57,407 nt of DNA from assembly GCA_021851715.1 (NCBI GenBank), contig JAJZCR010000017.1:1-57407 (forward strand), written 5' to 3'. Shown in pieces: positions 1 through 7,306 of the stretch. Source of the stretch: Planctomycetota bacterium (GTDB lineage Bacteria; Planctomycetota; Phycisphaerae; WQYP01). The notes below the pieces were generated by a model. It searched no databases. It had not been told where the DNA came from and saw only the letters and a program-made list of their open reading frames with translations. The position numbers and the translations under genes were made by a program. Positions within the stretch are counted from its first letter, which is position 1, and each line of letters starts with the position of its first letter.

Positions 1-150
1 CCCATTATAAACCCGCTCCACGCAGCATCAACTATTAAAATTGCTTGCTGCAACCGTTGTAGAGTCCGCTATGAAAGGTTTCCACTCCGTGCATCAGCTA
101 CTTCACATCGGCCTCACCTTTCACGAGCCTTCCTTGGCGCAATCCCCGTT
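1..150 (-). repeat. Left-edge copy of the RHS-cassette promoter repeat
   Basis: These bases match 3858-4013 closely, including the ends ('cccattataa' and 'caatccccgttttgttccc'). They are the region upstream of an RHS tip cassette. The minus-strand promoter (-10 TATAAT at 4-9, -35 TTGATG at 26-31, spacer 16) is identical in layout to those at 1336-1363 and 3861-3888. The gene it would drive lies beyond the left end of the window, so a further cassette is predicted there. Confidence 0.75.
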
Positions 151-175
151 TTGTTCCCGAATTTCGCGCCCCGCT

Positions 176-748
176 TCATATGGAGAGCTGTGGAATGCTG
201 CCGCTCCAATAAATCCTCATGTCGGGCATGCTCGAAGCAGGGAGCACCAGCCGAATATCTCGGTCCCATTCCTGGCCAAGTGCCCCGCCCAGCGCCGCAT
301 CATCGACCGGGCGGGCCACGAGGAAGCAGTAGGCACCCGAGCCCATCGTCGAACGCAGAGCCAAGGGAACGCGGATTTCCGCGCCTATCGGCGCGAATAC
401 CCGTGCGCGATCCGCAAGCACGTAGAAAAGCGGAGGGTGAAACAGGTCTATTTCCTCCGATAGAACGATCTCCGGCTGCAGAACAGCGGTCCCGAAAACC
501 GGCTTTAACGTGATGATTAATGCCGCGACCGCGCCTATCTGCCGCTCGCCAATCGCTGCGGCCAGCTCGGCAAGAGCCGCTACCGCCAGCGATACGTTAT
601 CAGTGGACCAGGTGGCCCACGCGATTTTCGGAAAAATCCGATCACCCCCACCCTGGTAAAAACCTTGAGAAATGAGGTCCCTCCCGAGCGCGGTTCCGAC
701 GCCGTCGAGCCATGTGGAAATGTGTTGGCCAACCTCATCTTTAGTCAT
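176..748 (-). CDS. Candidate immunity protein of RHS cassette C (unknown family)
   Basis: 190-residue protein that I do not recognise. The ATG at 748 overlaps the stop of the RHS tip gene at 745 (ATGA), which implies translational coupling; this decided the start, although the frame is open further upstream. It has no signal peptide or clear membrane segment. The middle (about residues 50-90) is Ala-rich and helical in character, and the C-terminal half contains the hydrophobic run GAYCFLVARPVDDAALGG. Its place directly after a toxin-like C-terminal domain, and the lack of a counterpart in the other cassettes, fit a cognate immunity protein. That role is inferred from position only. Confidence 0.6.
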   Translation of the reverse strand: MTKDEVGQHISTWLDGVGTALGRDLISQGFYQGGGDRIFPKIAWATWSTDNVSLAVAALAELAAAIGERQIGAVAALIITLKPVFGTAVLQPEIVLSEEIDLFHPPLFYVLADRARVFAPIGAEIRVPLALRSTMGSGAYCFLVARPVDDAALGGALGQEWDRDIRLVLPASSMPDMRIYWSGSIPQLSI

Positions 749-1326
749 CGAGGTGCCGCCCATCCCCACGACTGAAGCCATTCCCGCTGGGCGTTCGTAA
801 TGTTGGTCGAGCCACCCTGCGGCGGATGTTTCCAACTGCCGTCCCTATTCAGCGACGAACCGTTCGAAAAATGCACATTGTCCTGCCCGTCCGGAATCGG
901 TGGCGGATTGAATCCGGCCCATGGCGAAACACCCAGCGACGGCACACCCGGCGTTGATGGAATGGGAACCGATTCAGGCGTCGGATACGCCAGCGGTTGA
1001 ACGCCGGTCCCCACGCTCCAACCGGGCGAGATTACCATCGAATCAGTACCCATCGCGTCCACCAATCCCACCGGATCACTCCCCACAAATTGATACGTAT
1101 CCGCACCGTTGATGTTGAGCGCGTTCGGCGACAAGCCGAAGCCATTTGTCGCATCGACCGCACGAAATCCCGTCCCGAGACTTCGGGATTGCGCCGCAGC
1201 GCCAGGACAATTCATCTCACCGGCAGGAATGCCCGTGCCACCTTGGGGGTACTCAGCGGTGACGCGGCAGGCCCTCGCCGCCGGCCGCGGTCCGGGTTCG
1301 GAAGTTGTTTCAATCGTCGCTACCAT
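745..1326 (-). CDS. Orphan RHS C-terminal tip, cassette C (putative toxin)
   Basis: 193-residue protein. Residues 1 to about 85 are nearly identical to the start of the gene at 3024-3851 and end in the RHS core signature NINGADTYQFVGSDPVGLVD. The following roughly 100 residues are unique, Pro-rich, and end with DGSWKHP...NAQREWLQSWGW, a tail of the kind seen in small polymorphic-toxin domains. None of the YD-repeat shell of a full RHS protein is present. ATG 1326 is chosen because it lies 9 nt after the conserved -10 box; an in-frame upstream start at 1353 would lie before the promoter. Toxin activity and target are not evident from the sequence. Confidence 0.65.
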   Translation of the reverse strand: MVATIETTSEPGPRPAARACRVTAEYPQGGTGIPAGEMNCPGAAAQSRSLGTGFRAVDATNGFGLSPNALNINGADTYQFVGSDPVGLVDAMGTDSMVISPGWSVGTGVQPLAYPTPESVPIPSTPGVPSLGVSPWAGFNPPPIPDGQDNVHFSNGSSLNRDGSWKHPPQGGSTNITNAQREWLQSWGWAAPR

Positions 1327-1363
1327 AATACGCCCATTATAAACCCGCTCCACGCAGCATCAA
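1058..1363 (-). repeat. 306-bp direct repeat (RHS core end plus promoter), copy C
   Basis: Aligns without gaps to 3583-3888 at a constant offset of 2525 bases. From about 1101 to 1342 the two copies differ at only a few positions (for example around 1142-1148). The unit contains the conserved 5' part of the RHS tip gene, the start codon and the promoter. It is the probable recombination substrate for gaining or swapping C-terminal modules. Confidence 0.85.
1336..1363 (-). promoter_or_regulatory. Promoter of RHS cassette C
   Basis: On the minus strand: -35 TTGATG (1363-1358), 16-base spacer, -10 TATAAT (1341-1336), then 9 bases to ATG 1326. Expected transcription start is at or within about three bases of the start codon, leaving no room for a ribosome binding site. 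The same arrangement is kept at 3861-3888. Confidence 0.65.
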
Positions 1364-1384
1364 CCATTACAATTTCCCCCGCCG

Positions 1385-1780
1385 CTACAGCCGCCCCATA
1401 CCCAGTCCGGCCGTGATAGCCGGCAGGAAGGCTGTGATGAACGTGGCCCAGATCGAGACGCCCACAGACAGTTCCAGCCAGGCCAGAGCCGGTTCAACCC
1501 GGCACCCAGCGGACAGCGGCCCGTACGCCCGCGCCCGGGCCACCAGCAACGCCGCCACGGCCAACGGCAGCATAGCCAGCCCCGCCAACCAGAATACTGC
1601 CCAGGCAACAACGCCGAAAATTTCGCCGAGCACCCAGCGGGGAGCGAATGAGGCCACGTAGCCCGAGTGGGCCGTTAGCGCCCACACGGCAGTAGGGAAC
1701 ATCACCAGACACGCTCCACTTCCCGCAAGCAGCATCCACACCAAGCCCACCGGCTGTCCTTTCAGGGGTGTTGCGTTCAT
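1385..1780 (-). CDS. Small integral membrane protein (RHS cassette B accessory)
   Basis: 131 residues with about four hydrophobic segments (roughly 10-33, 45-62, 62-80 and 97-125). Start at ATG 1780 (MNATPLKGQP), 25 bases after the stop of the preceding gene; the open frame reaches further up but would overlap that gene deeply. It is the last gene of cassette B, and its stop lies just before the promoter of cassette C. I do not recognise the family. A membrane-bound immunity or helper protein is a positional guess. Confidence 0.5.
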   Translation of the reverse strand: MNATPLKGQPVGLVWMLLAGSGACLVMFPTAVWALTAHSGYVASFAPRWVLGEIFGVVAWAVFWLAGLAMLPLAVAALLVARARAYGPLSAGCRVEPALAWLELSVGVSIWATFITAFLPAITAGLGMGRL

Positions 1781-1805
1781 TTCCTGCGCTCCATATTTTA
1801 CAGCC

Positions 1806-2996
1806 TCATTTGTGCCTGCGACGGCCCCACGTTGGTCCCGCCCCCGCGGCGGTCCCCCGGCCGGGCGATAACAGTCCACACAGGCCAGCGGCAAGCCCGA
1901 TTCCGCGGAACCGTCGCCCTGGGCGAAGCATCGTAATCTGTCCCCACTCTGCCAACAGGCCGCCGCGGTCGAACAGAAAAAAGGGTTGGGCTGCTGCCCT
2001 GTGCCTTGCTCCCGAAACGTCAAGATACAACTTCCAGCCGCGGTTATTAAACAGAAAGACTCGCCCGAAGGGCGGGCCAGACCGTCTGAAATAGGCGATG
2101 CTGGCGAGCACCCGGGCCGCGTTTAGCCCACGCGACAGGTGCCCGACACCAATCGCCAACCGGAACCAGCGCTCGGGTGCCATCCCCCTGCGCCGCGAGT
2201 AGGCTGCGTCCGCCAACGGCCGAAGCTCCCAGGGTGGAGCCCCAGCTAGCGCCAGCGCGGAGGTAAATCGGTGCCGAACCCATCTGCTGGCCGCCACTTC
2301 AGGCAAAGGCCGGGGAGAGCCGACAAACAGGTACGCTGATTTGACCGAGCGCACCCCACCGGGCGAACCCATAGAGCCTAGGCAGAGCAGGCCGAGCGGA
2401 AAAGAAAGACCACTCTTTTGGATGCGGTGGACGATGATACGCTTAGCCCACGCTGGAGCGTAAAGTACGAATGGGCGAATCGGCGTGCCATGGGCCGCAA
2501 ACACATGCACCCAGGAGATTTCCAAAGATCCGGGTGCCCTCTGTCCAAAGGCCAGGAACGGCTCGGCCGGCCTCTGCTCTCGCCTTAGCGGAAAGGCCAC
2601 CACCGCGGAGCGCACCCGGCCCACCAAGGTGAAGCTCAGGGACGCCCCCCTTGGAAAGCCCCCGTATCCGCGTGTGACCGCGATGGAGTCAATTCCTTTC
2701 GGCAGTGCCAGATTGCGGCCGGCGACACACAACTCGCGGGTGAACCGGAACTCAAGCAGGCCACTCATTGCTTGTCGGCTGGATACACGAATGACGTGGC
2801 CTTGCGACCTCACCTCTCGCCCGGACGGCAACACGAGGGCCACAGCCCGTTCCAGTCCCCGGCGTGTCAATTGCCGGGACCACCCGAACGCGCATAACGC
2901 GATAAATACCTCGGCCACAACGATAAACCACACAGCCCTCGAGCGAAGGCAACTCGATGCGGCCGCCTGTGGATTGGCATTTTCACTCGTTGTCAT
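1806..2996 (-). CDS. Membrane-anchored protein downstream of RHS tip B (candidate immunity)
   Basis: 396 residues, unrecognised. One clear transmembrane segment near the N-terminus (about residues 22-40, AVWFIVVAEVFIALCAFGWS) is followed by a large, Arg-rich soluble part of mainly beta character. It starts 27 bases after the stop of the RHS tip at 3024, and the next gene follows at 1780. The last 50 residues are unusually rich in Gly and Arg. Position suggests an immunity or accessory role in cassette B. No catalytic motif is visible. Confidence 0.5.
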   Translation of the reverse strand: MTTSENANPQAAASSCLRSRAVWFIVVAEVFIALCAFGWSRQLTRRGLERAVALVLPSGREVRSQGHVIRVSSRQAMSGLLEFRFTRELCVAGRNLALPKGIDSIAVTRGYGGFPRGASLSFTLVGRVRSAVVAFPLRREQRPAEPFLAFGQRAPGSLEISWVHVFAAHGTPIRPFVLYAPAWAKRIIVHRIQKSGLSFPLGLLCLGSMGSPGGVRSVKSAYLFVGSPRPLPEVAASRWVRHRFTSALALAGAPPWELRPLADAAYSRRRGMAPERWFRLAIGVGHLSRGLNAARVLASIAYFRRSGPPFGRVFLFNNRGWKLYLDVSGARHRAAAQPFFLFDRGGLLAEWGQITMLRPGRRFRGIGLAAGLCGLLSPGRGTAAGAGPTWGRRRHK

Positions 2997-3023
2997 ACGT
3001 CAACAAGCTCCGATTTCGGCTTG

Positions 3024-3851
3024 CTAAGACCCGCCGAGCGAATGGATTAAAGCCTCGATTGCCGCATCGTTCCATGCCGACAACGCACCCTCGATCGCGG
3101 AATCCGATCCGGGAAATACGATATTCTGGTGGGCCTCGCCCGGGAGGTAATGTTCTGGGAAGGTAAAGTGCACGTGTTTAGTGGTGGTTGACTGCCATTC
3201 GGAGTCAGAATAATTGGTCCCGCAGGTGTACGTAAAAACTCGGGTCTTAATAAACGTAACATTTGCATCGTAGGCGTACTGGGCCGATGTCAGGGTCGTG
3301 TCACTTTGCACCAGGTCGAGATTAGCAGCCAAGTCGCTGTACGCTCCCACGAGGGTTAGGGCACTGCCCGCGTACCTGGCCCACATGTTTGCGCTGGGGC
3401 TGTTACCGGTCGTGTAAATCACGCCAAGGCTCTGGGAATAATGGGTGTTGACGTAATATCGGCAGGCACCGTTTGCGCAGGGGAGCTTGTGCGGGGGACC
3501 GCGCCACGCCTCAAGTGGCCCAGGCCCCGTCTGGGGGAGGGCAAAGGGCATACCGGGGAACCAGATCGCTTGCCCGCTCGCATCCACCCTTCCCACCGGA
3601 TCGCCCCCCACAAACTGATACGTATCCGCACCGTTGATGTTGAGCGCGTTCGGCGACAAGCCGAAGCCACTGGTCGCATCGACCGCACGAAATCCCGTCC
3701 CGAGACTTCGGGATTGCGCCGCAGCGCCAGGACAATTCATCTCACCGGCAGGAATGCCCGTGCCACCTTGGGGGTACTCAGCGGTGACGCGGCAGGCCCT
3801 CGCCGCCGGCCGCGGTCCGGGTTCGGAAGTTGTTTCAATCGTCGCTACCAT
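3024..3851 (-). CDS. Orphan RHS C-terminal tip, cassette B (putative toxin)
   Basis: 275 residues. The first roughly 90 match the cassette C protein (MVATIETTSEPGPRPAARAC onward) through NINGADTYQFVGGDPVGRVD. After the ASG end of the core the remaining 185 residues are unique. This tail contains CANGACRYYV, several Asn/Thr/Tyr-rich stretches and paired cysteines, with no transmembrane helix. No known toxin motif is obvious. ATG 3851 sits 9 bases after a perfect TATAAT, as in cassette C. The gene is followed at 27 bases by the 396-residue membrane-anchored protein. Confidence 0.65.
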   Translation of the reverse strand: MVATIETTSEPGPRPAARACRVTAEYPQGGTGIPAGEMNCPGAAAQSRSLGTGFRAVDATSGFGLSPNALNINGADTYQFVGGDPVGRVDASGQAIWFPGMPFALPQTGPGPLEAWRGPPHKLPCANGACRYYVNTHYSQSLGVIYTTGNSPSANMWARYAGSALTLVGAYSDLAANLDLVQSDTTLTSAQYAYDANVTFIKTRVFTYTCGTNYSDSEWQSTTTKHVHFTFPEHYLPGEAHQNIVFPGSDSAIEGALSAWNDAAIEALIHSLGGS

Positions 3852-3888
3852 AATACGCCCATTATAAAACCGCGATGCATTGCATCAA
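3583..3888 (-). repeat. 306-bp direct repeat, copy B
   Basis: Partner of 1058-1363, offset 2525, no gaps. Similarity to the left-edge copy goes on upstream of the promoter to about 4013 (equivalent to 1-150 with an offset near 3857), so the full unit is about 430 bases. Copy C has lost that upstream extension. Confidence 0.85.
3861..3888 (-). promoter_or_regulatory. Promoter of RHS cassette B
   Basis: Minus strand: -35 TTGATG (3888-3883), 16-base spacer, -10 TATAAT (3866-3861), 9 bases to ATG 3851. The hexamers and spacer length equal those of cassette C although part of the spacer sequence differs, which argues for selection on the promoter. Confidence 0.65.
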
Positions 3889-4145
3889 CTATTAAAATTG
3901 CTTGCCGCAACCCCCGCAAGGTCTGCGGTGAAAGGTTTCCACTTCATGCACCAGTTATTTCGCATCGCTTTTCCCGTTCGCGAGCTTTCCTAGGCGCAAT
4001 CCCCGTTTTGTTCCCCACGAGGCCTGAGGTCTATTGCCCCGCACCGTCGCAGAGCATGCACAACCTCGCCACCCACCGGAAATGTGGGGAATTGAAAGCT
4101 TCGCCGAACAGATACGATGGTTTGGATCCTGCCGATATCGATACA

Positions 4146-4325
4146 CTAAACATTAAACTGCTCTAAAACACCGAAAAAAAGACAAAGCAGGGCCACGACC
4201 AAAATAGATTTGTCCGACTGGCTCGCCGACGCTACCGCCGGCTGGGTGGCACCGCAGAACGGACACACCGGTGCCCCCATGCCGATTTGCCTGCCACAAC
4301 TGCCGCAAGGTGTGTTATCTCGCAT
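4146..4325 (-). CDS. Zinc-ribbon protein with truncated TM2-like segment
   Basis: 59 residues. An N-terminal zinc ribbon (CGSCGRQIGMGAPVCPFCG, two CxxC pairs) is followed by a polar linker and one hydrophobic run, SILVVALLCLFFGVL. This run resembles the start of a TM2 domain, where a GxHRFY motif would normally follow, but the frame ends at once. The gene therefore seems cut short near the junction with the next cassette repeat. It follows the 130-residue membrane protein by 28 bases. Possibly an accessory of cassette A, or a remnant. Confidence 0.45.
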   Translation of the reverse strand: MRDNTPCGSCGRQIGMGAPVCPFCGATQPAVASASQSDKSILVVALLCLFFGVLEQFNV

Positions 4326-4353
4326 TGCACGAATCTCGGTCGTGGGTTTTTCA

Positions 4354-4746
4354 TTATAGCTCCTTAAGCGGAGAGTAGTACAGCACGCCGATGATGATTC
4401 CGTCGACCAACGTGCGGGCCACCCCAAACATTGCCGTCGAGGCTGGCAAAACTACCGGCCCCCAAGCTGCACACAGCGGAAGGCTCGCAACGCTAGCCCA
4501 AAGGAAAAGAGGGCGGGCGGGCCTCCAACCCCAAAACAAGCCGATCGTCGCAGCCAGGTCTACGGGGAGCCACACGAGCCAGGCGATAAGACCGGTCCAC
4601 ATGTTTAGCGGATGAGGTTTTGCCAAGTAGTCCCTAAGCGGTTGCGGCAGGTGAGCCCTGCCATAAAAAGCAAATGACAAAATGTAACAAGCGAAACAGG
4701 CCAGTGAAATGCACAGCAGCAGCTTTAACCTGGGCCTTGGCAGCAT
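4354..4746 (-). CDS. Four-helix membrane protein (candidate immunity for RHS tip A)
   Basis: 130 residues with about four hydrophobic segments (roughly 8-26, 50-70, 80-100 and 105-125). Family unknown. It begins 70 bases after the stop of the RHS tip at 4817 and occupies the immunity slot of cassette A. Small polytopic proteins act as immunity proteins for membrane-active toxins in several polymorphic toxin systems. Whether that holds here cannot be read from the sequence. Confidence 0.5.
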   Translation of the reverse strand: MLPRPRLKLLLCISLACFACYILSFAFYGRAHLPQPLRDYLAKPHPLNMWTGLIAWLVWLPVDLAATIGLFWGWRPARPLFLWASVASLPLCAAWGPVVLPASTAMFGVARTLVDGIIIGVLYYSPLKEL

Positions 4747-4816
4747 CGGAATTCATCCATTATCGAAGCGAAGAGCCTTAATTCCATTTTCCGGCAGAGC
4801 CATCCGTGGCAGCCAT

Positions 4817-5431
4817 TTATGGGGGGGGAGGCAGCGAGTGGATAAAGTTATCAACATTTTCCACAAAGTCTTGTCCGTTTTCCTGGTTGAAATGCAGGGC
4901 CTTACGCACGTTATCTTCCCAATGCTGCTTTTGCAGCCAGCTTTCGATCTGGAACCAAAGCGGCGGAGGCGGAACCAGTGGGGATTCGTATGGGCCAGCC
5001 CCGGCGTATGGCGGCAGCGGACCACCGAGGTAAGGATTGGAGTGCCACCGAGAATAATAACCGGCGGACTCTTGCGCCCCGCGCCCCGTCGGATCCACCA
5101 ATCCAACAGGATTCGACATCACAAATTGATACGTATCCGCCCCGTTGATATAACCCGCCGGGTCCTGGCTGATCTCCCGATGAACCGCTCCTGAGGTGTA
5201 TCGGGATTTCGGCTCCTGCCTCAACACAGCCCGGGCCGAACTGTACCAGCGGGCGCGTTCGTAATATAACCCCGTAGCCGGGTCCAGCGGCATGCCTTGA
5301 TAGAGATTGTTCACCATGGGAACCGTGCCGGCACACACCGCCCGGCGATTGCGACTGCCGCCACTATAAAGCCGTGACCCCCGGCCGCGCCCCAATTTCC
5401 AGCCCGAAATTGTTTCACCCAACGCAACCAT
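4817..5431 (-). CDS. Orphan RHS C-terminal tip, cassette A (putative toxin)
   Basis: 204 residues from ATG 5431. This copy keeps more of the RHS core than the others: NNLYQGMPLDPATGLYYERA, then ISQDPAGYINGADTYQFV and PVGLVDPTG. The roughly 85-residue C-terminal domain is unique: it is Pro/Tyr-rich, then a helical WLQKQHWEDNVRKALHFNQE, then a Pro4 end. Its 5' part is only weakly like the B and C copies. A TATAAT box lies about 22 bases upstream on the minus strand, without the conserved -35. Confidence 0.6.
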   Translation of the reverse strand: MVALGETISGWKLGRGRGSRLYSGGSRNRRAVCAGTVPMVNNLYQGMPLDPATGLYYERARWYSSARAVLRQEPKSRYTSGAVHREISQDPAGYINGADTYQFVMSNPVGLVDPTGRGAQESAGYYSRWHSNPYLGGPLPPYAGAGPYESPLVPPPPLWFQIESWLQKQHWEDNVRKALHFNQENGQDFVENVDNFIHSLPPPP

Positions 5432-5600
5432 CAATCCGCCTCAAATACAACGTTGACATTATACCACCGCCACCCAAACACCGCCCACCCCAAGGCCTCG
5501 AACTTTCCGCCGCAGCGATGGGGACATCGCCGGCTACAAAAAAAACGAAACCGCCCGTAGGGGTGTCAACCTATATCAGGACGGGACAGTTAATTCCGTC

Positions 5601-5680
5601 GTCCATCTGCGGTCATCTGCGTCATCTGTGGTTCGATCGTCCTCTGCCTTCGTGTGCCTTCGTGTCCTTGGTGGTTAATT
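5601..5680. repeat. Word-like dispersed repeat, copy 1
   Basis: Contains 'catctgcggtcatctgcg', 'tcctctgcct', 'cgtgtgccttcgtgtcc' and 'ggtggtt' in that order. The same order recurs at 5761-5840 with a few substitutions, and a related block ('ctctgcgtcctctgcgtctc') lies between them. Non-coding repeats of this type are widespread in planctomycete and other genomes. Confidence 0.75.
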
Positions 5681-5760
5681 CCGTCGTTCTCTGCGTCCTC
5701 TGCGTCTCTGCGGTAAAAAAATCGTCGTCGCTCCCGTCTGCCGCCGCGCATGCTGAAAAA

Positions 5761-5840
5761 TCATCTGCGGTCATCTGCGCCATCTGCGGTTCTTCCGTCC
5801 TCTGCCTTTGTGTGCCTTCGTGTCCTTTGTGGTTCAATCC
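5761..5840. repeat. Word-like dispersed repeat, copy 2
   Basis: Second copy of the block at 5601-5680 in the same orientation, with 'catctgcggtcatctgcg', 'tcctctgcct', 'tgtgtgccttcgtgtcc' and 'tgtggtt'. Confidence 0.75.
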
Positions 5841-6433
5841 CCCCGTTTCTCTGTGACTCCCGGCCGCGCCGGGACGGTTCTTCCCGTTGGGGTCCCCCGA
5901 TTCCCGTCTTCGCGACCCGTAGCCGGCTGGATCCCTCCAGCCGTGGCGAACACCAACATCGTCGGCGACCAGCTTTGGCTCTGGTCGTTGACCGGCCAGC
6001 CAACCCTCTCCCACATCTCTCAACTTCAGACCAGTGAGCCGCCAGGCCCTTCCCCTTGGCTATCTTGGCCATCTTGGCCACCTTGAACCTAAGTTGCAAT
6101 AAAGAAATGACTTATGAATATCCCACAACTTGGCCACCTTGCCCCGCTAACTTGGCCATCTTGGCCCTCTTGTCCAACTCCCGTCCGCCGCCATCCGTCA
6201 ATCGGTGTAATCTGCGAAAGGCGTTTATCCCGACAGCTATCGGGATGGATAACCCCGTCGCCCACGCAACGCACAAAAGGACCACAACAGCGCCGCCCGA
6301 GCCTCAAAAATATGTGCTGATCTTGAACATCTTGATAATCTTACCCCCACCCATGGCCACCACCGTGGCCAGTTTCAGCGCCCGGCCAGGCAATGACCTG
6401 GCTGAGGGAGGAAGGCGTTGGGGGCTTTGTACT

Positions 6434-6477
6434 TGCGGCCGGTGACGGCCGCGGTCCCATGGCATCCACCGGCCGCA
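6434..6477. repeat. Inverted repeat (11-bp stems, 22-base loop)
   Basis: TGCGGCCGGTG at 6434-6444 pairs perfectly with CACCGGCCGCA at 6467-6477. No T-run follows on either side, so an intrinsic terminator is not supported. It lies about 100 bases upstream of the nucleosidase-like gene at 6575. Confidence 0.6.
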
Positions 6478-6574
6478 GAGCGGCCTTATGCACCGGCGGA
6501 AAGTTGCATGTTATAGGAACAGACCGTATGTTTTTCCGATGTTGATAGTCAGCACGGACCGATAGAATAAGGCG

Positions 6575-7306
6575 ATGGATACTCAAACGGCTTGTGATAC
6601 CAGAACATTATTAATCCTGACCGCCTTAAAAACGGAATCTCAGGTGGCTCTCTCCGCGGTCAAACAATGGCAGCGGGATACCCCCACGGCCATCCGGTCC
6701 AACGCATACGAAAATATTGTTGTGGAACAGATAGGCATGGGCGGACGGTTCCTTAAAGAGGTTCTACCCCGCTATTACCACAGTCAGGTCACGGGGGTGG
6801 TAACCGCCGGTCTTGCGGGGGCCTGCAGTCCAGACTTGGCGGTGGGCGACCTGGTAATAGACAGCAACTCTCACGAGGCCCTGCGGGTGGAGGAAATCAT
6901 CAATGCGATGTCCAACGGACAACGCTGTTTTATCGGCCCCATTCATACCAGCAAGCACATGGTTGGCGATATCGCCGAGAAAAAGGAACTTTTTGTAAAA
7001 GGCAAATTTATTGCCGTTGATATGGAAAACAAGGCGACCTTCCAATTCGCCCAGCGACGCAATGTGCCGTGGATCGGCATTCGCACCATCAGCGATACCG
7101 CCTTGGATTCCCTTCCCAGCCAGATTGGCCATTTCATCGATCCTTCAGGTAGTGTGCGACCATTGGCCTTGACCATTACCCTGGTATCCAATCCAGGCAT
7201 CATCGGAAATTTGATGCGGCTGGGAAAATCCTCCAATATTGCATCGCGCAAACTTGCCGACGCCATCGGTGCTATTATTCGCTCCGGCTGGCCATTCCAG
7301 GCGTAA
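6575..7306 (+). CDS. Nucleoside phosphorylase-like protein (HpnG/MTA-SAH nucleosidase superfamily)
   Basis: 243 residues of the PNP/UDP phosphorylase superfamily. Visible motifs: GMGG near residue 52, the family signature GLAGACSPDLAVGDLVI near 75-95, and FIAVDMENKATFQFAQ near 147-162, corresponding to the VDMExA ribose-binding motif. The pattern is closest to the hopanoid-associated phosphorylases (HpnG), which cleave adenosylhopane, but 5'-methylthioadenosine/SAH nucleosidase-type activity is also possible. No hopanoid cyclase lies nearby; a GT21-type HpnI-like enzyme is encoded 35 kb away. It stands alone on the plus strand. Confidence 0.7.
   Translation: MDTQTACDTRTLLILTALKTESQVALSAVKQWQRDTPTAIRSNAYENIVVEQIGMGGRFLKEVLPRYYHSQVTGVVTAGLAGACSPDLAVGDLVIDSNSHEALRVEEIINAMSNGQRCFIGPIHTSKHMVGDIAEKKELFVKGKFIAVDMENKATFQFAQRRNVPWIGIRTISDTALDSLPSQIGHFIDPSGSVRPLALTITLVSNPGIIGNLMRLGKSSNIASRKLADAIGAIIRSGWPFQA

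Follow-up and report, generated by a model that had tools for sequence, protein, structure and literature searches.

Orphan Rhs tips are commonly viewed as silent scraps. In enterobacteria, orphan rhs-CT modules usually lack translation initiation signals (PMC3967940), and displaced or 'dissociated' rhs tips are described as likely silent, with a suitable start site in one of three Serratia fragments (PMC2935791). In Salmonella, an internal promoter, P2, drives expression of main and orphan Rhs tips, which function as type II toxin-antitoxin modules; it is located within a conserved rhs region, with a start site 89 nucleotides (nt) before the PxxxxDPxGL codons and a CTG start (PMC7043789). Here we analyse a 57,407-nt stretch of contig JAJZCR010000017.1 from a Planctomycetota bacterium (the whole stretch is called the window), in which positions 1-5434 hold an array of short minus-strand Rhs-tip genes, each followed by its own partner genes. 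Sequence comparisons suggest that these cassettes are probably displaced Rhs tips that have been re-equipped with gene starts and are kept as expressed toxin-immunity operons. The pattern is real, exceeds chance and is more general than the first-pass annotation could show.

Three open reading frames (ORFs) of the array are intact, and all lie on the minus strand: cassette 1 (745-1326, 193 amino acids (aa)), cassette 2 (3024-3851, 275 aa) and cassette 3 (4817-5431, 204 aa). In each gene, a short head precedes the terminal portion of the Rhs core, and an unrelated tip follows. The proteins of cassettes 1 and 2 begin with MVATIE and that of cassette 3 with MVALGE; the tip domain of cassette 2 occupies 3027-3575. 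The TIGR03696 profile recognises the core end of cassette 3 above its threshold (43.8 bits, cut-off 32.5); cassettes 1 and 2 score no more than 13.3 and 16.3 bits, respectively. Since these two scores are weak, the core end of cassettes 1 and 2 is assigned from a common INGADTYQFV..DPVG DNA repeat, by which the retained 3' piece is clear. A 300-nt head-plus-core repeat (1053-1352 and 3578-3877, both on the minus strand) is 96% identical between the two cassettes, and the 65 codons of heads 1 and 2 are 98.5% identical; outside this repeat, the repeat comparison reported no DNA likeness between them. Partner genes on the same strand lie downstream of all three tips. The start of partner gene 1 (176-748, 190 aa) overlaps the stop of tip 1 as ATGA at 748. 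Tip 2 is followed by partner genes 2a (1806-2996, 396 aa) and 2b (1385-1780, 131 aa), and tip 3 by partner gene 3 (4354-4746, 130 aa) and possibly by a second small gene (4146-4325, minus strand, 59 aa), an uncertain one with a zinc-ribbon-like match below cut-off. A simple hydropathy scan gives 1, 1, 3 and 4 membrane-like peaks for partners 1, 2a, 2b and 3, the single peak of 2a being N-terminal, and shows the three tips to be free of hydrophobic segments (a signal-peptide predictor was not applied). A fourth head (1-158, minus strand), at the contig edge, is 79% identical to 3858-4015; its -35 box TTGATG (31-26) and -10 box TATAAT (9-4) are separated by 16 nt, and the contig ends right after the -10 box. 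The first-pass annotation had described three short Rhs-tip genes with further genes in their immunity slots and had implied a fourth cassette at the left edge; the open frames with their Rhs core end, the partners and the edge head bear out each of these points. Positions 1-34 also overlap exactly, over 34 nt, with the start of another contig of the same genome (G000:C52), inside the repeated head, and the assembly may break at such heads.

The layout resembles that of the orphan rhs-CT/rhsI modules of Salmonella and other enterobacteria, which likewise have a short 3' core piece, an unrelated tip and a downstream immunity gene, and whose tips also occur on full-length rhs genes elsewhere, as tip 2 does here (PMC3967940). 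Unlike those modules, the present cassettes have a dedicated head that would provide a promoter, a start codon and a shared, conserved N-terminus. As with the P2 modules of Salmonella, a putative promoter would drive tip and immunity gene without the shell and recurs before many tips; unlike P2, this promoter and an ATG belong to a head of their own that precedes the core remnant, in several classes with a common MVxxxE (PMC7043789). Its position also departs from that of P2, because the -10 box of cassette 1 (1341-1336) precedes the end of the core (near 1056) by about 280 nt. Arrays of dissociated rhs tips are similarly thought to arise by tip displacement via core homology, but their likely silence is not matched here, where starts are predicted together with a conserved head (PMC2935791). 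Polymorphic toxin systems, for which planctomycetes are among the carriers, include standalone toxin and immunity cassettes beside full genes, but no shared head is described for such cassettes in the available part of PMC3482391. No recognised C-terminal toxin domain, such as polymorphic toxins have, was matched in the window tips. The maf cassettes of Neisseria, in which a full-length gene is followed by C-terminal fragments, can be likened to the array by description only (PMC2935791). No literature report of such a head was found, the motif itself not being searchable as text.

The promoter-like boxes are the best conserved part of the head DNA. Among 18 class-A heads, pairwise identity is 96% in the -35 box and 98% in the -10 box, and falls to 72% in the 16-nt spacer, 70% in the leader and 56% in the upstream DNA, with 87% in codons 1-6. 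The ATG follows the end of the -10 box by 9 nt, and class-A messages would accordingly be nearly leaderless. In cassette 1, the predicted class-A promoter (1336-1374, minus strand) comprises TTGATG at 1363-1358 and TATAAT at 1341-1336; in cassette 2, the same boxes are found at 3888-3883 and 3866-3861, in the upstream part of a long class-A head (3858-4016, minus strand). The long form begins about 120 nt before the promoter, and 10 other genomic matches begin within about 20 nt of the left edge of 3858-4016; the short form begins near the promoter. A promoter scan of 7 kb returned three promoter-like matches, all precisely at class-A heads. Their number is ordinary (2.6 in shuffled sequence) and their positions and repetition are unusual. 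Cassette 3 has a promoter of another type, absent from the scan list, whose TATAAT was located by pattern; the start of its class-B head (5414-5463, minus strand) consists of TATAAT, a 5' leader with GAGG and ATGGTT..GAA. Other class-B heads, with this different promoter and leader, occur on four contigs of the same genome (C29, C101, C115 and C119), and the head DNA of cassette 1 has about 20 further matching places there. The pattern TATAAT-gap-ATGGTNRC..GAR matches this genome 22 times and a reversed control 0 times; all 22 matches are at rhs-linked places that earlier searches had found. Beyond the start, heads lead into Rhs core pieces of widely differing length, and a few have no recognisable core. 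In the heads outside class A, which were chosen by the N-terminal motif described below or a looser form of it, -10-like boxes with 5-6 of 6 positions are present in 31 of 66 (about 3.7 when shuffled), as are Shine-Dalgarno-like sites (31 of 66; 7.6 when shuffled). No RNA element was recognised at the heads: Rfam gave no match up to E 0.5 for positions 1-7000. The earlier proposal that the modules have their own promoter and start is thus well supported as a prediction, and it extends to relatives.

The heads also share the beginning of the protein. For the family, 391 core matches were tallied in 28 genomes, and few of those listed sit in frames over 1000 aa. Regions hand-picked from the listed core matches and from earlier matches gave 165 core ORFs, of which 161 from 16 genomes are distinct after removal of 4 duplicates. 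A closed 5' end and a core start within 250 residues define 116 short ORFs in 12 genomes; the remaining 45 comprise 21 closed longer-core ORFs, 21 ORFs whose 5' end is cut (the motif being present in 1) and 3 full-length frames, of which one is cut as well. With the M of the motif assumed as the predicted start of closed ORFs, 86 of the 116 show MV[AT]xxE ahead of the core, with shares of 14/14 in G021, 11/12 in G016, 14/21 in the window's own genome, 4/9 in G007 and 0/1 in each of G015 and G024. A count that presumes no motif finds M-V-x-x-x-E as the commonest two-residue pattern after any M (89/116); over all patterns, the maximum in 30 shuffles is 11. Residue entropies and the 23 head classes were computed on heads selected by the motif or its looser form and cannot, for that reason, demonstrate the invariance of V2 and E6. 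Among 5785 non-core ORFs (670,780 residues), the strict motif was encountered 21 times, and 20 of the 21 matches resemble further heads when inspected by eye. It is absent from the three full-length rhs frames, one of which is cut at its 5' end, and from all 48 core ORFs of other families of the class (18 genomes; 31 closed and of comparable length), so that a head outside the family is not supported. Database protein searches placed the strict motif at the start of 84 of the best 120 of 160 matches and of 31 of a further 58 of 60, but the queries contained the head, which biases this share, and it is not used as evidence. Most of the sampled short Rhs genes of the family thus combine an apparent gene start with a near-fixed N-terminal signature, and MV[A/T]xxE offers a simple handle to find such genes. 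Tandem short Rhs tips without the MVxxxE head were seen in other families, at L258 (G082; 10 core ORFs) and L259-L260 (G094; 9 core ORFs, the first being a 1972-aa frame).

Heads and tips are combined in different ways across genomes. Head class H1 is found in G021 only, in 11 genes with 10 tip clusters, and H2 in G016 only, in 9 genes with 8 tip clusters; H6, H7 and H10 are likewise confined to one genome each. The same tip is also carried by different heads. In the 15-member tip-2 cluster, 6 tips are on heads H0, H4, H10 and H11 in three genera, and 2 end full-length genes, namely frames of 2127 and 2147 aa in G020. Tip 2 and partners 2a and 2b are syntenic at four loci in four genomes, the window, L158, L159 (a full-length rhs) and L160, and weaker relatives of partner 2a follow two more tips (L142 and L144); a tip-2 alignment scan of the genome collection gave 3 loci. 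Tip 1 occurs elsewhere only in part (G002, G004 and G003), including in longer rhs frames. Besides itself, partner 1 has one homologue in 28 genomes, G020:C184, which is 34% identical and directly follows a stretch of 27 residues that matches the end of tip 1 (E 4e-4). The earlier view of the array as displaced tips is accordingly upheld for tip 2, which ends full-length rhs genes in a relative, holds in part for tip 1 and is unsupported for tip 3. Two contigs of the window's genome, C93 and C119, have one common tip on two head types, with DNA likeness that starts inside the core end. This pattern fits an exchange in which the core remnant would serve as the site of recombination, as the enterobacterial tip model also has it (PMC2935791). 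Between the window and L158, the ratio of nonsynonymous to synonymous substitution rates (dN/dS) is 0.16 for tip 2 and 0.33 and 0.34 for partners 2a and 2b, with identities of 77% for the tip and 52-56% for the partners; the tip common to C93 and C119 has a dN/dS of 0.14. Tips and partners are therefore under purifying selection (dN/dS 0.14-0.34).

No full-length rhs was found in the window's contig, which ends at window position 1. In the genome, the Rhs core is matched 19 times and RHS_repeat 23 times; several of these matches fall in long frames on separate contigs, for example one of 3567 aa on C109 that is cut at the contig edge. The first-pass annotation, which had seen no full-length rhs, was thus right for the window but not for the genome. 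It had also named two outcomes that would overturn its reading. One, that the C-terminal parts are conserved non-toxin domains, may still apply. The other, a frameshifted shell of one long rhs gene, was looked for and not found: 0 of the 23 RHS_repeat matches in the genome are on the window's contig, which excludes the array as a frameshifted remnant.

We propose that a compact head, made of a promoter-like element, a start codon and the MV[A/T]xxE N-terminus, takes the place of the Rhs shell in front of the terminal piece of the core, which is followed by an unrelated C-terminal tip and then by partner genes. Such a cassette would likely be made as a small toxin-immunity operon. The heads recur before many unrelated tips, some of them as copies within one genome, and tips with their partners appear to be swapped between heads, and also onto or off full-length rhs genes; recombination within the core remnant is the probable route. 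The shell-less tip would likely be produced and neutralised within the producer cell in a toxin-antitoxin-like manner, and such a unit could maintain selection for itself and for its immunity gene, and would remain at hand to be joined again to a full-length rhs. Production of shell-less Rhs tips, their toxicity in the cell and the reader of the signature would thereby become testable outside enterobacteria.

Several observations weigh against this proposal. The three window tips have no Pfam, NCBIfam tip or significant PHROG match, a known-toxin match is also absent in nine further short genes scanned, and known toxin tips appear in only 2 of 118 motif-bearing database relatives. The AlphaFold model of tip 2 is poor (mean predicted local distance difference test score 58.6), and Foldseek returned 0 matches for it at E 0.001, the best having E 0.019 and probability 0.25. 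For tip 3 and partner 3, homologues could not be traced, tip 3 being absent among the loci compared. Heads on C7, C52, C80, C84, C91, C101 and C103 of the window's genome are followed by broken or short frames, which indicates that part of the cassette set decays. The strict motif is missing from 30 of the 116 short ORFs (the looser form raises the count to 94) and from 17 of the 21 closed longer-core ORFs, 4 of which have it. The 116 ORFs include paralogous heads, a kinship that the shuffles do not model, so they are not independent events. Among the 12 multi-member head classes, 5 are restricted to one genome and 7 occur in two or more, H0 in six, and 7 of the 15 members of the tip-2 cluster have no recognised head or full-length frame (3 are cut at the 5' end). 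Purifying selection, too, may stem partly from an earlier time on full-length genes.

The two exceptions among the 118 give the toxin-like character claimed in the first-pass annotation a footing in relatives, although not in the three window tips: the tip is a phospholipase A2 domain in one of these motif-starting proteins and an Ntox24 domain in another. Other single matches among the 118 are to two families of unknown function and to Lnb_N, and a further relative, with the motif off its annotated start, has an Ntox37 match below cut-off. Tip 2 gave no PDB sequence match up to E 1; together with the weak model and the insignificant Foldseek matches, this led us to drop a known fold for it. 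Delivery by contractile systems was dropped as well, because the 88%-complete genome has no PF04984 or PF05943 match for a type VI secretion system (T6SS) or phage-type sheath. A T6SS-delivered effector is also disfavoured by the lack of a VipB match in this genome and of an RHS_repeat match in the contig (PAAR and VgrG were not searched for).

The cassettes could instead be a silent archive of displaced tips, retained solely as recombination stock as in enterobacteria. The row of unrelated tips, the core remnants and the partly broken frames agree with this account, as does the classical displaced-tip model (PMC2935791), yet the conservation of promoter boxes, start codons and N-terminus beyond their surroundings and the dN/dS values of 0.14-0.34 speak against silence, and we regard it as improbable. 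An equally improbable reading takes the array as an immunity bank, in which the head mainly transcribes the downstream immunity genes for use against kin and the tip is a passenger. Partners lie directly downstream, and one is translationally coupled, as this would predict; however, tip 2 is better conserved than its partners in both identity and dN/dS, in the single comparison of window and L158. The expressed toxin-immunity operon remains the reading that we prefer for the cassettes as a whole, and the alternatives that follow concern what the common N-terminus is for.

Residues 4, 5 and everything from 7 on diverge between heads, whereas V2 and E6 keep recurring; each of the four possible codons is used for Val, and likewise for Ala, so the constraint looks to be at the protein level. 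MVxxxE is common to heads with quite different promoters and leaders and was not found in the three full-length frames. On this basis it may be a recognition signal that passes the shell-less tip to a shared partner, such as an export machine, a chaperone or a particle, the tips then being delivered effectors; we consider this possible but unlikely. The lack of sheath matches in the 88%-complete genome and the tips devoid of a hydrophobic segment count against delivered effectors, and the use of GAA in 76 of 80 cases at codon 6, with avoidance of GTG and GCC, would fit a translation-start constraint as readily as a recognition signal. Taken together, the codon usage leaves protein-level and translation-start constraints both possible. 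In a stronger version, which we hold to be rather unlikely, MVxxxE would act in place of the Rhs shell as a novel N-terminal signal for sorting and would load dozens of interchangeable toxin tips, each made from its own promoter, onto an export or particle system; if true, the family could dispense with the Rhs cocoon. It is comparably doubtful that the shared start merely reflects a single ancestral translation-start region that gene conversion has spread, with the peptide itself unselected. Near-copy heads within a genome, such as heads 1 and 2, and the codon bias at positions 2, 3 and 6 point in that direction, but promoters, leaders and the sequence past residue 6 differ across heads, and V2 and E6 stay.

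Some of these genes contain in-frame inserts. A hairpin-bearing insert (GGCGCTGCGGCGC-hairpin-..GGGATTT) that encodes PGAAAxxR...GFR is present at 1160-1210 and 3685-3735 of the window and at L121, L122, L065 and L066. By pattern, 25 of the 161 core ORFs have it, as do 12 of the 5785 non-core ORFs, with up to 3 copies per ORF, and its hairpin arm varies between copies. Another insert, VLRQEPKSR..GA..REI, lies inside the core end of cassette 3 (about 5160-5230) and in P0004, L148 and L154; its pattern was found in 5 of 161 core ORFs and 0 of 5785 others. Beside the array, a phosphorylase-superfamily gene at 6575-7306 is similar to the hopanoid-associated HpnG (TIGR03468 E 2.1e-29, below its cut-off). 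Upstream of cassette 3, positions 5604-5840 contain two 79-nt direct repeats (89% identical) of the ATCTGCGGTCATCTGCG type, and repeats of the CTTGGCCAT type are located at 6055-6179.

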